Assembly (NCBI RefSeq): GCF_000340375.1
Contig: NZ_KB446647.1
Coordinates: forward strand, 103,601 to 167,600
Direction: 5' to 3'
DNA: 64,000 nucleotides
Source: Eggerthia catenaformis OT 569 = DSM 20559
GTDB taxonomy: Bacteria; Bacillota_I; Bacilli_A; Erysipelotrichales; Coprobacillaceae
In this document: positions 42,529 through 48,734 of the stretch, piece by piece
Numbering within the stretch: the stretch's first letter is position 1
Layout of the letters: each line of letters starts with the position of its first letter
The notes under the pieces: model-generated
What the model saw: the letters and a program-made list of their open reading frames with translations, nothing else
Told to the model about the DNA's origin: nothing
Databases searched by the model: none
Made by a program: the position numbers and the translations under genes

Positions 42529-42553
42529 AAAATCTCATTGTTCATGAGATTTT
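42529..42553 (-). terminator. Terminator of the LysR gene
   Basis: AAAATCTCAT (42529-42538) and ATGAGATTTT (42544-42553) form a stem. On the minus strand it is followed by TTTTTTATT. Confidence 0.75.
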
Positions 42554-43440
42554 AATTTAAGCATATCAATATATTCATCAGCAAGCTTTGAAAGAATAGT
42601 TTGATTATGTGTTAAATAGCCAATTTCCATATAATCATCAACATCTAAGGGAACTGCAATAATATTAGGACCATTCAGTTCCTGATTAATTACACCACTA
42701 CAAAAAGTATAGCCATTAAGTCCTATCAGAAGATTAAAAAGAGTTGCCCTGTCTGAAACTACAATATTCTTTTTACTCTCTAATGTAGAAAGTATTTCTT
42801 CAGAAAAATAAAAGCTATTACGTTCTCCCTGTTCATAAGATAAGCGAGGGTAGTCTTTTAAATCATTAAGTGTGATAAAGGACTTATCGGCAAGAGGTGA
42901 TGTTTTAGATAAAAAAACATGAGGTTTAGCTTTAAAGAGTGAGTGGAATGTCAGATTATTCTCTTTTAATGTACGATTGATGACAGTCTGGTTAAAAGTA
43001 TTAAGATATAAAATCCCTATCTCACTTCTTAACTTAGCCACATCTTCTATTAAAGTATAGGTCTGTGTTTCCCTAATACGAAAATCATATTCACTTTCAC
43101 CATATCTGTTTAATAATTCTACAAAAGCTTCTACTGCAAATGAATAATGCTGTGTTGAAACCGCAAATGTTTTCTTTCCTTTTATCTTACTAATATATTT
43201 TTCTTCAATCAATTCTGCCTGTTCTAAGACTGCTCTGGCATAGCCAAGAAATTCTTCTCCCTGAGGTGTTAGGAGAACACCTCTATTTGTACGTCTAAAA
43301 ATGCTGATGCCCAGTTCTTTCTCTAATTCTCTAATTGCTCCGGTCAGTGAAGGTTGAGACATATATAAATATTTGGCAGCTTCACTGAGAGTTCCTTTGG
43401 CTGCAATTGTTACGACATATTTTAGTTGTTGTAGAGTCAT
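42535..43440 (-). CDS. LysR-family regulator next to the methionine synthase remnant
   Basis: The start at 43440 (MTLQQLKYVVTIA) has GGTGA upstream and gives 301 residues. The N-terminal winged HTH has GTLSEAAKYLYMSQPSLTGAIRELEKELGISIFRRTNRGVLLTPQG. A periplasmic-binding-like sensor domain fills the rest. The style (SQPSLTGAIRELE, TNRGVLLT) is close to CysB/MtaR-like regulators of sulphur amino acid genes. Together with the dead MetE-like gene behind it this suggests a former methionine regulator. Its present target may be elsewhere, or the divergent IIB-ROK gene 100 bases away. Confidence 0.88.
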   Translation of the reverse strand: MTLQQLKYVVTIAAKGTLSEAAKYLYMSQPSLTGAIRELEKELGISIFRRTNRGVLLTPQGEEFLGYARAVLEQAELIEEKYISKIKGKKTFAVSTQHYSFAVEAFVELLNRYGESEYDFRIRETQTYTLIEDVAKLRSEIGILYLNTFNQTVINRTLKENNLTFHSLFKAKPHVFLSKTSPLADKSFITLNDLKDYPRLSYEQGERNSFYFSEEILSTLESKKNIVVSDRATLFNLLIGLNGYTFCSGVINQELNGPNIIAVPLDVDDYMEIGYLTHNQTILSKLADEYIDMLKLKSHEQ

Positions 43441-43540
43441 ATTAATCACCAAAGATATTATATAAGAAATTCATGATATTTTAAAGATGTGTAGAAATAA
43501 TATCTATCAAATGATAAAATAGTTTTATATGGGAGACAGA

Positions 43541-44947
43541 ATGATGGATGATTTTTTAAGAGATATTCATACTTTGATTTTTAAGCAATGGATTTTGTGT
43601 CAGTCTATTAAAGGATGCAAGATGTCTTTAAAAACATCTGGTGATGAGGAAGAGATCTATTTAGAAACAGAACGTTCTTTTGGAAAGGCTGCTTTTCATA
43701 AAAATAATGTTATTGAATTGGTATTAGAAAATAGACAAACCGGATCAGTAGATTTTTATTTGCATTTTCAAATGCAGACTTTAAAGCATGCTGCCGGATT
43801 ATTTCATGAACTTGTTAATACAATGATTCATGCTCAAGAACGTAAGAAATTAAGAATTCTATTAAGCTGTACAAGCGGGCTGACAACATCGTTTTTTGCT
43901 GAATCATTAAATGATGCTGCAAGGACTATCATGTTGGATTATGAGTTTTCAGCTGTTTCTTTTAATGAGCTTGCTGATCAGGGAAATGATTATGATGTTA
44001 TCTTGCTTGCTCCTCAGATTGCTTATCAGCAGGCTTATATTCAATCAGTTTTACATCGTGTCCCTGTAGAAGCTATCGCTCCGCACGTTTTTGCTCAATA
44101 TGACTGTGGTGCTATATTTAAACAAATTGAGCTTGCTTTAAAAAAAGATATTCCTGAAGTGCCTCTTTTACAGCTGAAAGTGAATATTAATTATCCGGAG
44201 AAAATTCTTTCTATCGGTGTTTTAAAATCCAGAATTCATGCTCATATTGTCTATCGTGTTTATCAGCAGGAAGAGATTCTTACAAATGGTGAAATGATTA
44301 AGCCTAATATTGATATTCATGATTATAATGATATTGTTAATTTATGTCTGTTAGAGCATCCTGATTTAAAGATAGTAGGAATTGCGATGCCGGGTATTAT
44401 TCAAGGAGGACATTTGACTATGTTAGGTGAAGGCTTTGATCATTGTGATGTTGTTGGATATTTAAGGAATAAACATCCAAATATTTCCTTTTCTTTAGAT
44501 AATGATGTGAATGCGATTGTTTCAGGAATATATGCTGTTAATACCGGTTATGATACGATGTCTTTCTATTTTTTACCTAAAGGCAATAAAATTGGCGGAG
44601 TGGGAAATATTTTTAAAGGTCAGATAGTAAAAGGACGACAGAATATTGCCGGTGAAGTACAGTATCTGCCACTCAATTATAGTAAAAGTACTGAGGAGCT
44701 TGCAAAGACAATTGAAGGATCCACGGAAATAGTTGCTAAGACTCTGGTTTCTATTATTTCAATACTAGGGCCTGATCTAATTGCTTATTATTGTTCCAAT
44801 GTCCCCAGTATTGATGATTTAAAAGAGGAAATGAGCCGTTATATACCTGACGAATACATACCGGTTATTAAAAAAATTGATAATATGCAGGAATATATTT
44901 TATTTGGGGAAATGATTATGTGTATTATGAGAATGGAAAATGCTTAG
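43541..44947 (+). CDS. PTS EIIB-like domain fused to a ROK-type domain
   Basis: The protein has 468 residues from the ATG after GGGAGA; 43529 and 43544 are other possible starts. Residues 1-100 are of unknown fold with no clear HTH. Residues 104-200 match a lactose/cellobiose-type PTS EIIB. They include LRILLSCTSGLTTSFFAESL with the phosphorylatable Cys110, and DYDVILLAPQIAYQ. Residues 220-465 resemble ROK proteins: VGIAMPGII, FSLDNDVNAIVSG with the would-be catalytic Asp, and GGVGNIFKGQ with AGEVQYLPL. The ROK ATP loop DxGxT and the Cys-rich zinc site are missing. A sensor that reads PTS phosphorylation is inferred. TAAAAT with an extended TG (43512-43520) is the likely promoter. Confidence 0.75.
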   Translation: MMDDFLRDIHTLIFKQWILCQSIKGCKMSLKTSGDEEEIYLETERSFGKAAFHKNNVIELVLENRQTGSVDFYLHFQMQTLKHAAGLFHELVNTMIHAQERKKLRILLSCTSGLTTSFFAESLNDAARTIMLDYEFSAVSFNELADQGNDYDVILLAPQIAYQQAYIQSVLHRVPVEAIAPHVFAQYDCGAIFKQIELALKKDIPEVPLLQLKVNINYPEKILSIGVLKSRIHAHIVYRVYQQEEILTNGEMIKPNIDIHDYNDIVNLCLLEHPDLKIVGIAMPGIIQGGHLTMLGEGFDHCDVVGYLRNKHPNISFSLDNDVNAIVSGIYAVNTGYDTMSFYFLPKGNKIGGVGNIFKGQIVKGRQNIAGEVQYLPLNYSKSTEELAKTIEGSTEIVAKTLVSIISILGPDLIAYYCSNVPSIDDLKEEMSRYIPDEYIPVIKKIDNMQEYILFGEMIMCIMRMENA

Positions 44948-45003
44948 GCTTCTCAAGTAAAATAAAATTTGATATGATATAGTTGGAAATGGAGGAATCA
45001 CTA

Positions 45004-46245
45004 ATGAAGTATGCTTTTATCAATGGAATAATTCTTGATGGCACAAGAAATATGAAACCGCGCTATCATCAGGCTATTTTAACATATGATGATCGTATTG
45101 AGTCTATTACTGATGAAAACAGTTCTTCATTTCAGGATTACGAGGTTATCAATCTGCATGGAAATTATATTATGCCGGGATTGATTAATATGTCTTCTTC
45201 GTTTGGTTTCGATGGCAAATCAAGAACTTCCAGATTATTGTCTTTACCGGAGTTTATGAAAGTTAATAAAATTAAAAAAATATATAAGAAAGAACTTCTT
45301 AAACAGCTTTATAGTGGCGTAACCACAGTTTTAAGTATGGGAAGCTATCAGAATATGGATAGTGTGATGAATAGCTATATAGATAAAGAACTGATGGATG
45401 GACCGAGAGTTATTGCTGCAAATCAGCCTATCGGCTTTAAAGAAAGCTATTTATCTGATCTATGTATGATGGTCAGTAATGATGAAGAAGCCGGTGATGC
45501 AGTCAGTCAGGCATATATCAATAAGAATGATGTTGTTTCTATTATGGCAACAGATGATATATTTCATCATCATCAGATGCCAGGCAGCTTGTTATCATCT
45601 ATTATTAGTGAAGCACATCGATTATCATTAAAAACAGCAGTTTATGCATCAAATCAGGAAATGATGAAAACAGCTCTTAAATGTCATGCTGATTATCTTT
45701 ATATGGGTATTTCTCCGGATGTTGAAACAATAGACTTATTTAAGCAATCCAATACAGTTCTTATTTCAGGATTATCTCCATTAATTAATGATTACTTATT
45801 AGATGCTGATAAAACCAGGCTTAATAAAGAGGATAGGCATAAAGCAAAAACAATTCTCCAAGGAGCTATCAGTTGTTTAGAAGCTTGTATGCTTGAAGAG
45901 ATTCCTGTAGGAATAGGTAGCGGAATAGGTTTTTATGTCACTCATTATGATTTCTGGAGAGAACTTATTCATTTTAAAAATTTTTGTCATATTTCCAATA
46001 AGTTTGCTTTATATTGTGCAACTTATAATAATGCCAAGCTGTTGGGTCTGGGCAGTGTAACCGGCAGTCTTTCTAGCGGAAAATATGCTGATATGATTGT
46101 CACTAGGGAGAATCCTTTAGATCGTTTGGAGGCTCTTAAAGACCCGGTTATGACTATTTCTAAAGGAAGAGTTTATAAAGATATAACAATAAATAAGAAT
46201 ATACAAATAGAAAAAGCATTAGATCGTATTATTGATAAATTATGA
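45004..46245 (+). CDS. Amidohydrolase-like protein lacking metal ligands
   Basis: The protein has 413 residues, and GGAGG lies eight bases before the ATG. The fold is that of imidazolonepropionase/prolidase-type amidohydrolases. A beta-sandwich entry FINGIILDGT leads to PGLINMSSSFGFDG and LYSGVTTVLSMG, and the family tail is LGLGSVTGSLSSGKYADMIV. The metal site is gone: the HxH after PGLID is now S64 and S66. The later His positions read AVYAS and DYLYMG, and the catalytic Asp in the GTD position is Gly in GIGSGIG. Hydrolysis is unlikely. It follows the IIB-ROK gene by 56 bases and is closed by a terminator, so the two may form one unit. Confidence 0.8.
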   Translation: MKYAFINGIILDGTRNMKPRYHQAILTYDDRIESITDENSSSFQDYEVINLHGNYIMPGLINMSSSFGFDGKSRTSRLLSLPEFMKVNKIKKIYKKELLKQLYSGVTTVLSMGSYQNMDSVMNSYIDKELMDGPRVIAANQPIGFKESYLSDLCMMVSNDEEAGDAVSQAYINKNDVVSIMATDDIFHHHQMPGSLLSSIISEAHRLSLKTAVYASNQEMMKTALKCHADYLYMGISPDVETIDLFKQSNTVLISGLSPLINDYLLDADKTRLNKEDRHKAKTILQGAISCLEACMLEEIPVGIGSGIGFYVTHYDFWRELIHFKNFCHISNKFALYCATYNNAKLLGLGSVTGSLSSGKYADMIVTRENPLDRLEALKDPVMTISKGRVYKDITINKNIQIEKALDRIIDKL

Positions 46246-46268
46246 TGAGATAAATCTCATCTTTTTTT
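46244..46268 (+). terminator. Terminator after the amidohydrolase-like gene
   Basis: GATGAGA (46244-46250), loop TAAA, TCTCATC (46255-46261), then seven T. Confidence 0.8.
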
Positions 46269-46347: not shown

Positions 46348-46644
46348 TTGGAAGAGATTAAATATGAAGAGGAAATCACTGATTTGGCTGATTTATTTAA
46401 GATTTTTGGTGATTCTACAAGACTAAAGATTCTATATGTCTTAATGAAAAAAGAAAAGAATGTGACTGAAATTACTGACGATTTAAATATGACTCAGTCA
46501 GCTGTTTCTCATAGTTTAAGAATATTAAAAACTAATAAGCTTGTCAGTGCGAGAAGAGAAGGGAAAGCTGTTTATTATTCTTTAGCGGATGATCATGTAA
46601 AAACAATTATCGCGATGGGTAAAGAACATATTGAGGAGGATTAG
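46348..46644 (+). CDS. ArsR/SmtB-family metal-sensing repressor (CzrA-like)
   Basis: The protein of 98 residues starts at a TTG seven bases after AAAGGAGG. Its winged HTH is IFGDSTRLKILYVLM...VTEITDDLNMTQSAVSHSLRILKTNKLVSARREGKAVYYSL in order. The last helix has D-x-H and H-x-x-E (LADDHVKTIIAMGKEHIEE), the alpha-5 Zn-type site of CzrA/SmtB. No Cys alpha-3 site is present. It should release its operator when Zn or a similar ion binds, so that the two downstream genes are expressed. Confidence 0.9.
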   Translation: MEEIKYEEEITDLADLFKIFGDSTRLKILYVLMKKEKNVTEITDDLNMTQSAVSHSLRILKTNKLVSARREGKAVYYSLADDHVKTIIAMGKEHIEED

Positions 46645-46648
46645 TTCT

Positions 46649-46864
46649 ATGAAAAAGAAGTTTAAGATTTATGTAGACTGTGCAGCATGTGCACAGAAGA
46701 TGGAAGATGCTGCTAAAAAAGTGGCTGGGGTTAAAGAAGCAAAGATTACTTTTATGACTCAGAAGATGACTGTTGAAGCTGATGATGATATGTTTGATGA
46801 TGTATTAGATAATGTTATAAAAGCATGTAAAAAAGTAGAACCTGACTGTGAATTCTATATTTAA
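46649..46864 (+). CDS. Small heavy-metal-associated (HMA) protein
   Basis: The start at 46649 after GAGGAGG gives 71 residues; an upstream in-frame start lies inside the repressor gene. The ferredoxin-like HMA fold has the metal motif DCAACAQKMEDA (CxxC) near the N-terminus. It is probably a metal chaperone, or a detached N-terminal domain for the ATPase encoded next. That ATPase lacks an HMA domain of its own. Confidence 0.88.
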   Translation: MKKKFKIYVDCAACAQKMEDAAKKVAGVKEAKITFMTQKMTVEADDDMFDDVLDNVIKACKKVEPDCEFYI

Positions 46865-46865
46865 T

Positions 46866-48734
46866 ATGAAAAACTTAAATAAAAGACAAATAAAGAATTT
46901 AAGAGATATTATCGTATCATTATGTTTCTTTATTGTTTTAGAGATTATTGAACATTTTAATATCTTTTCTATTTTAGATCACAAGATGCTTTTATTTATA
47001 TTATATCTTATTCCTTATTTTATAGCCGGTCATCATGTTATTAGAAAGTCATTATTATCAATAAAAAACAGACAGCCTTTTAATGAATCATTTCTTATGA
47101 CACTGGCAACTATTGGAGCTTTTATTACGGGAGAGTTTGGGGAAGCTGCTGCTGTTATGCTATTTTATATGACTGGTGAGTGGTTTCAGGATTATGCTGT
47201 TAATAAATCGAGGAATTCTATTACAGAATTGATGGATATTGCACCGGAATATGCGAATGTTGAAATGGATGGAAAGATAATTGTAGAGGATCCGGAAGAT
47301 GTTCCATTAGGCAGTGTTATTGTGATTAAGCCGGGAGAAAAAGTGCCGCTTGATGGAATTATTATTGAAGGAGATTCTATGATCAATACAAGTGCTTTAA
47401 CCGGTGAATCAGTTCCTCGGCATATGACATATGGTGAAGAAATTATTTCCGGATGTATTAATGGTGATGGATTATTAAAGGCTAAAACAACGAGACTCTA
47501 TAATGATTCAACGGTTGCTAAGATATTAGAACTGGTTGAGAATGCAGCTGATAAAAAGTCAAAGACAGAAGCCTTTATTACAAAATTTGCCAGATATTAT
47601 ACTCCGGCAGTTGTTATAGGGGCATTGCTTCTGGCAATTATTCCATCATTAATCACAAGAGATTTTATGACATGGATGTATCGTGCTTGTACTTTCCTTG
47701 TTATTTCATGTCCATGTGCTTTGGTTATTTCTATACCTTTAGCTTTTTTTGGCGGAATAGGAGCTGCCGGTAGAAATGGAATTTTAGTAAAAGGTAGTAA
47801 TTATTTAGAAATTATCAATGATACAGATATGATTATCAGTGATAAGACTGGAACTCTTACTAAAGGTGTTTTTAAAGTAATAGATGTTATAAGTGATAAA
47901 GATAAAAATGAAGTGCTTAAATTAGCTGCTCTGGCTGAAAACATGTCTACTCACCCTATAGCTCAAAGTATTAAGAAAGCTTATCATCAGGATCTTGACT
48001 TATCTTTAGTAAGTCATATTGAAAATATCTCAGGAAAAGGTATTTCAGGGATTATAGATGGTCAGGTAATACATATAGGCAATGCTTCCTTTATGAAAGA
48101 TAATCATATTGCTTTTAGTGAAATTAATAAACCGGGAGCATCTGTGGTTTATCTGTCCTCAGATAATAATTATTTAGGGGCTATTATTATTTCTGATGAA
48201 GTTAAGGATGAAGCAAAACAATCTCTTGATAGTCTTAAGCAGGAAGGTATTAAAAGATTTGTTATGCTGACAGGTGATCAGTATACATCAGCTGAAGCTG
48301 TTGCTAAGAAGCTGGGAATTGATGAGTATTATAGTGAACTGATGCCTCAGGATAAAGTAGAGAAAATAGAAGAGCTTTTTTATAATCAGACTCATAAGAC
48401 TGCTTTTATTGGTGACGGTATTAACGATGCACCGGTGCTTACTAGATGTGATGTAGGTATTGCAATGGGATCAATGGGCAGTGATGCGGCTATTGAAGCT
48501 GCTGATATTGTGATTATGGATGATGATCTTAGAAAACTTCCTTTACTTAAACGGATCGCCAAAAAAACAATTCATATTTCATCAGTTAATATTATCTTTG
48601 CTTTAGCTGTTAAAGTTTTGACATTATTATTTGGTGCTTTAGGTATTGCTGATATGTGGTGGGCAGTTTTTGCTGATGTTGGAGTTGCCTTTATCTGTAT
48701 CTTAAACTCTATGCGTACATTACGTGTTCAGTAA
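46866..48734 (+). CDS. cadA: P1B-type metal-transporting ATPase (Zn/Cd/Pb, CadA-like)
   Basis: The protein has 622 residues from the ATG one base after the HMA gene; a GTG 18 bases earlier is possible. Neither start has a good ribosome site, which suggests coupling. The P-ATPase marks are TGES in the actuator, the membrane CPC in SCPCALVISIP, DKTGTLTKG with the phosphorylated Asp, STHPIAQSI, and GDGINDAPVL. The last helix carries DVGVAFICILNSMR with the conserved Asp of the P1B-2 (Zn2+/Cd2+/Pb2+) group. It has no N-terminal HMA domain. It exports toxic divalent ions. Confidence 0.93.
   Translation: MKNLNKRQIKNLRDIIVSLCFFIVLEIIEHFNIFSILDHKMLLFILYLIPYFIAGHHVIRKSLLSIKNRQPFNESFLMTLATIGAFITGEFGEAAAVMLFYMTGEWFQDYAVNKSRNSITELMDIAPEYANVEMDGKIIVEDPEDVPLGSVIVIKPGEKVPLDGIIIEGDSMINTSALTGESVPRHMTYGEEIISGCINGDGLLKAKTTRLYNDSTVAKILELVENAADKKSKTEAFITKFARYYTPAVVIGALLLAIIPSLITRDFMTWMYRACTFLVISCPCALVISIPLAFFGGIGAAGRNGILVKGSNYLEIINDTDMIISDKTGTLTKGVFKVIDVISDKDKNEVLKLAALAENMSTHPIAQSIKKAYHQDLDLSLVSHIENISGKGISGIIDGQVIHIGNASFMKDNHIAFSEINKPGASVVYLSSDNNYLGAIIISDEVKDEAKQSLDSLKQEGIKRFVMLTGDQYTSAEAVAKKLGIDEYYSELMPQDKVEKIEELFYNQTHKTAFIGDGINDAPVLTRCDVGIAMGSMGSDAAIEAADIVIMDDDLRKLPLLKRIAKKTIHISSVNIIFALAVKVLTLLFGALGIADMWWAVFADVGVAFICILNSMRTLRVQ

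Follow-up and report, generated by a model that had tools for sequence, protein, structure and literature searches.

The window, by which we mean the whole stretch of 64,000 nucleotides analysed, carries on its forward strand a gene for a 468-residue protein (43541..44947) in which an N-terminal domain, a PTS EIIB domain and a ROK-like domain are fused, as judged from the ORF, Pfam, a family profile and a structure model. Its start is placed at the ATG at 43541, with GGGAG at 43531-43535 and a second in-frame ATG at 43529. On the same strand, after a gap of 56 bases, follows a gene for a 413-residue amidohydrolase-like protein (45004..46245; ATG at 45004, GGAGGA at 44991-44996) and an intrinsic terminator with a 7-bp stem and a T-run (46244..46268, +), and the pair has the look of a single transcription unit. 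A divergent LysR-type regulator gene assigned by eye (42535..43452, reverse strand) is a candidate regulator of this unit; it is not found beside the orthologous fusions of related genera. Downstream of the terminator, at 46348-48734, genes for an ArsR-type regulator, a short heavy-metal-associated protein and a CadA-type P-type ATPase were likewise recognised by eye, and their order is much alike in Kandleria (L066), L061 and L077.

The fusion runs from an N-terminal domain of about 100 residues through a lactose/chitobiose-type EIIB domain to a ROK fold, and a model of the whole chain, with 55 sequences as input, has a mean pLDDT of 91.7. The EIIB domain (residues 104-201; 43850..44143, +) is recognised by Pfam PTS_IIB at residues 105-178 (E = 2.3e-8; 35 bits against a cut-off of 23.6) and by comparison of the family profile with the chitobiose EIIB 1h9c (E = 2.2e-15), and EIIB secondary structure is present in the model at residues 104-201. 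The fold is of the lactose/cellobiose type and includes the P-loop cysteine: Cys110 (43868..43870, +), the predicted phosphorylation site, does not vary in any of the 56 aligned fusions, nor do P158 and Q159 of the same domain. Sequence, fold and Cys loop are common to the fusion and to lactose/chitobiose EIIB enzymes (1h9c, TIGR00853), from which it differs in that its EIIB is joined to an N-terminal and a ROK domain and remains under the NCBIfam subfamily cut-off (51 bits against 110 for TIGR00853). A lactose-type EIIA (PF02255, E = 5.4e-34) is encoded in the window genome.

The ROK half (residues 215-467; 44183..44941, +), assigned from alignment, model and fold comparison, is sub-threshold for Pfam ROK in the single sequence (18 versus 22.9 bits) but emerges clearly with the family profile (5nck, E = 9.4e-14). 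It has the two-lobed ROK/actin-like fold, with matches to 6jdc (E = 2.9e-13) and to the ROK repressor 5f7p (E = 5.8e-13). This fold is shared with the ROK sugar kinases, including ManNAc kinase 6jdc and glucokinase (TM to target 0.72), and so are the N-D and G-E residues of the sugar site, all four of which the window protein keeps (N321, D322, G371 and E372); in contrast to the kinases, the DxGGT ATP loop is missing from every one of the 56 aligned fusions, and there is no zinc site, neither the zinc-finger cysteines nor their CxCGxxGC cluster being present. The sugar/catalytic motif N321-D322-V-N324 (44501..44512, +) is retained across the alignment (N321 in 55/56, D322 in 42/56, N324 in 53/56), D322 being replaced by N in one subfamily. 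The ROK signature G-E-x-G-H has become G371-E372-V-Q-Y (44651..44665, +): G371 is kept in all 56 and E372 in 54, GH has mostly given way to [QK][YF], and within the former ExGH the relatives mostly read E-[VI]-[QK]-[YF]. The model has no HTH before the ROK domain of the kind found in NagC/Mlc-type repressors. Since the ATP loop is gone in all while N321, G371 and E372 are retained, the pattern fits sensing and not kinase activity; by its sequence the ROK half is not a kinase, and it may still bind a sugar or phosphosugar. The earlier note had described an EIIB domain with its cysteine in one chain with a ROK-like domain devoid of ATP loop, zinc site and HTH, and these parts are borne out by Pfam, the family profile, the model and the alignment of 56 fusions; the note overlooked the N-terminal domain, the family of paralogues and a split form that bears an HTH.

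The N-terminal domain (residues 1-103; 43541..43849, +) is modelled by AF2 with a pLDDT of 94.1 as an alpha-beta5-alpha fold, a topology that rules out both an HTH and an EIIA-like fold for these residues, and it has no family of its own in the libraries searched. Its best match among solved structures is the TriTu immunity protein 7zhm_C, which has the same alpha-beta5-alpha fold (Foldseek E = 6.5e-4, prob 1.00, TM 0.59/0.67; identity 12%), the next match having an E-value of 0.012. At the level of sequence the likeness is weak: Pfam TriTu (PF24689) matches 11 of 67 members of the domain family, and those scanned singly stay below the 27-bit cut-off. PPR-repeat matches of the domain profile involve short helix stretches and were judged to be due to chance. 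TriTu itself confers immunity to a toxin that modifies EF-Tu (PMC10469887). No toxin gene was noticed near the fusion, and the function of the domain presumably differs from TriTu immunity; the fold match points to a TriTu-like protein-binding fold. In a class-wide draw of 395 genomes, each of the 16 listed from the window's family has the domain, as do two from another family of the same order and no other genome among the 395; a phylum-wide draw added no lineage.

Fusions are widespread within the family: matches were found in 36 of 36 other genomes searched, and near-full-length fusions, about 75 by hand count from the match list, in 31 of 37 genomes. The fusion family is multi-copy and almost confined to one family of gut bacteria, in which it is near-universal. 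Named records with matches in the scan of genome contigs (Kandleria vitulina, Candidatus Stoquefichus, Faecalibacillus faecis and an Erysipelotrichaceae MAG) place the fusion-bearing family among Erysipelotrichaceae-related gut bacteria. The paralogues of a genome lie in unrelated loci with varying neighbours, among which a sugar O-acetyltransferase, an RbsD-like protein (named by Pfam, the others by eye), a PHP protein, a stand-alone EIIB and RpiR regulators recur. A strong enrichment of PTS or sugar genes around fusions was rejected; measured against genes further away, in loci that are not independent of one another, it is weak at best (sugar acetyltransferase p = 0.009, RbsD-like p = 0.027, EIIB p = 0.07). 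These distributions bear on the possibility that the fusion serves the PTS as phospho-carrier or as transport subunit, in the form of a soluble EIIB with a degenerate ROK half as passenger. The retained EIIB fold and cysteine agree with such a role, as do stand-alone EIIB or EIIBC genes near a few loci (L088, L090, L119, L189), but no EIIC was recognised near most fusion loci, that of the window included, the ROK part is conserved family-wide (six of the 15 invariant columns fall there), and several paralogues per genome occupy unrelated places; we consider a carrier function very improbable.

The ancestry of the fusion can be read from its relatives. In five genomes (loci L058, from the window genome, L097, L098, L099 and L136) an N-EIIB gene, comprising the N-terminal and EIIB domains, and a ROK-like gene abut or overlap, the pair of the window genome lying at L058:8488-10067. 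The N-EIIB proteins have 203-230 residues and the ROK-like partners 309-337, the latter with a winged HTH that is above the HTH_24 cut-off in L097 and L099 and weak or degenerate in L058 and L098. The two partners tested match NagC and Mlc models across both HTH and ROK (L136: E = 8.6e-15, residues 3-236). The split paralogues thus have the make-up of NagC/XylR-type HTH-ROK repressors, and the ROK half of the fusion groups with these in the tree; it differs from them in having no HTH and in the loss of the GH of ExGH. When the ROK tree is rooted with kinases and a genuine HTH-ROK regulator as outgroups, HTH-ROK and split forms are basal and all fusions fall on one branch (86/91). The tree of N-EIIB, built from residues other than those of the ROK tree, places all fusions in one clade (100/93), including two members whose ROK part is lost or broken, with the intact split pairs outside. 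A single fusion event accompanied by loss of the HTH is supported but not settled; the fusion branch of the ROK tree has moderate support, and long branches make the order of depth provisional. The simplest history would lead from an HTH-ROK repressor to one with a neighbouring N-EIIB gene, and from there through one fusion, in which the HTH was lost, to expansion. As stand-alone, paired and fused forms coexist in living relatives, the steps from a repressor to an EIIB-carrying, HTH-less protein are readable and testable.

N-EIIB also occurs without any ROK gene, in two conserved stand-alone paralogues, and in L101/L102 the ROK gene has gone from the same locus and N-EIIB stays; N-EIIB must therefore have a role of its own, and control of ROK is not its sole role. 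The ROK half is lost or decayed beside an intact N-EIIB at L101:6498-7115, L102:6481-7095 and L189:5910-6596. The cysteine is retained in split and stand-alone forms save for one stand-alone paralogue group (L060, L191:6067-6666 and L192) and a single further protein in L194. This group is a conserved stand-alone N-EIIB that adjoins a phosphatase-like gene (L060:9498-10100, L191:6067-6666, L192:15946-16548), with the cysteine gone in three of three genomes and groEL nearby in two of the three loci; on the evidence of the missing residue it is a pseudo-EIIB.

The second gene of the window encodes a member of the amidohydrolase family (Pfam Amidohydro_1, E = 1.6e-15). Both it and its intact relatives match the Xaa-Pro dipeptidase-like amidohydrolases (NF051886) over their whole length, under the equivalog cut-off, and the window copy departs from these in the replacement of six metal ligands. 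Alignment with intact relatives locates the changes: S64-S-S66 stands in place of the HxH motif (H64S, H66S; 45193..45201, +), S179 in place of the metal-bridging Lys (K179S; 45538..45540, +), Y214 and M234 in place of metal His residues (H214Y, 45643..45645, +; H234M, 45703..45705, +) and G307 in place of the metal Asp (D307G; 45922..45924, +). None of the six ligands is left in the window copy, all six are present in nine relatives, and among related genera the gene forms a graded series from an intact to a metal-free site, with two ligands kept in Kandleria (L066), four in G016 (L061) and six in G018/G026 and G024. The window copy retains 44 of 70 other invariant positions and none of the ligands, so that the ligands were lost preferentially (p = 0.004), and its frame is open for 413 codons at the end of a long branch (1.76 changes per column), although a random sequence with the same composition should contain about 34 stops. 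Pseudogene status is unlikely on these grounds; the product looks like a pseudoenzyme, and a former metal-dependent enzyme whose catalytic site has eroded in the window's clade best explains the pattern. An amidohydrolase relative in G013 (L095:143-1451) is frame-broken, the gene decaying there too.

The earlier note had rightly recognised that all expected metal ligands are replaced, and had joined the two genes into one sensing unit, with a ROK-like receptor under the control of PTS phosphorylation and a non-catalytic barrel that binds a ligand or partner. The close spacing on one strand ahead of a terminator would suit such a unit, as would the fact that, in the orthologous clade to which the window fusion belongs, each of the six fusions is from a genome with the amidohydrolase and that the amidohydrolase frame stayed open over its long branch despite six lost ligands. 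The wider distribution speaks against it: of the 43 genomes of the window's family, 15 have the amidohydrolase, and most of those without it have fusions. The amidohydrolase lies near a fusion in four related genera only, adjoining it in the window, G018 and G026 and about 1.2 kb off in G008; inserted genes part the two in G016, they are on separate small contigs in G024, and in g6, g12, g16 and g20 the amidohydrolase is away from any fusion. The four genera have a common gene order, with marR upstream and arsR and cadA downstream (and, in the window and G008 only, lysR and purA further downstream), so that the adjacency is explained by shared ancestry and is not evidence of joint function. 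G018/G026 and G024, moreover, have the locus together with an intact metal site, so that a non-catalytic role is not the shared state. A single unit is accordingly very improbable: the genes do stand side by side in some genomes, but as a conserved pair they were rejected on distribution and shared gene order. The best explanation of the pseudo-amidohydrolase is a co-directional but dispensable neighbour, not a conserved partner of the fusion. What stands of the proposed unit is a PTS-controlled, non-kinase ROK protein, which is the best reading of the invariant cysteine, the lost ATP loop, the sugar-site residues that are in part retained and the split form, where the EIIB protein has a true HTH-ROK repressor as its neighbour.

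Control of ROK regulators by EIIB is best known from enteric bacteria and their Mlc, which meets EIIB as a separate protein; in E. coli, EIICB-Glc in its dephosphorylated form binds and sequesters this ROK repressor (PMC3901232; structure 3bp8). The likeness to the window fusion lies in the control of a ROK-fold regulator by a PTS EIIB, which for the fusion we infer, the gene fusion itself being what links EIIB to ROK. The enteric system consists of an HTH-bearing Mlc and a separate, membrane-bound EIIB of the glucose type, whereas the window fusion combines a lactose/chitobiose-type EIIB and a ROK fold in one chain with neither an HTH nor a membrane part. No description of an EIIB-ROK protein was found in literature searches.

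We lean towards the view that the fusion serves in PTS-linked signalling and has no enzymatic activity, that it descends from a ROK repressor responsive to sugar, and that it is switched at Cys110 and acts through protein contact; its phosphorylation, ligand, partner and output are what we infer from the features above. Neighbouring genes for N-domain-EIIB and an HTH-ROK repressor would have fused once, the HTH being lost and the product multiplying in the window's family; the split pair would be a soluble version of the Mlc-EIIB switch, and the fusion a contact made permanent. Cys110 would take phosphate from the PTS by way of HPr and then a lactose-type EIIA, and its phosphorylation state would report sugar uptake or the level of PEP. 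This state may alter the packing of EIIB against ROK, or the binding of a sugar or phosphosugar by ROK at the retained N-D and G-E residues. As DNA binding would have been given up in the fusion, the output would have to be protein contact, made either by the TriTu-like domain or through pairing between the ROK domains of the fusion and of an HTH-bearing relative, with no direct binding to DNA. Besides the HTH-ROK relative, a regulator of the RpiR or LysR type or some other protein that binds the N-terminal domain is a candidate partner. A regulatory role of both fusion and HTH-ROK is argued for by the RbsD-like/sugar O-acetyltransferase locus, in which fusion (L135, L196) and HTH-ROK (L181, L187) take the same slot.

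ROK regulators are known to form dimers. A specific form of the signalling reading would make the fusion an HTH-less antagonist that pairs through its ROK fold with HTH-ROK relatives, which it would compete with or modify, the pairing being set by the phosphorylation of EIIB. Fusions share one branch beside HTH-ROK proteins in the ROK tree, and by hand count about 30 of the family's 43 genomes have a full-length HTH-ROK relative, the window genome (L058) among them; several fusion-bearing genomes, e.g. G018 and G026, are without a listed relative, and we regard the antagonist as rather unlikely. The broader signalling protein, taken together with its multiplication, could represent an expansion, specific to this lineage, of PTS phospho-switches built as one chain, for which a ROK repressor swapped its HTH for a soluble EIIB and a new TriTu-like domain for docking to proteins. 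We put this forward tentatively, as a possibility of some weight; if true, one genome would have many separate loci at which protein contact reads out PTS phosphorylation.

Two further groups of fusions have recurrent neighbours. A stand-alone homologue of BrxF, a BREX-3 P-loop protein, adjoins the fusion in 12 loci (L076:11326-11760, L065, L067-L071, L073-L075, L195 and L197); the assignment was tested in L076 (NF033453, 75.4 bits against a cut-off of 50), and, by eye, none of the neighbours listed for these loci was recognised as a BREX gene. A second subgroup (L089, L092, L093, L094 and L122) is flanked by a gene for a small conserved protein and by nadA-nadB-like genes of NAD synthesis, named by eye.
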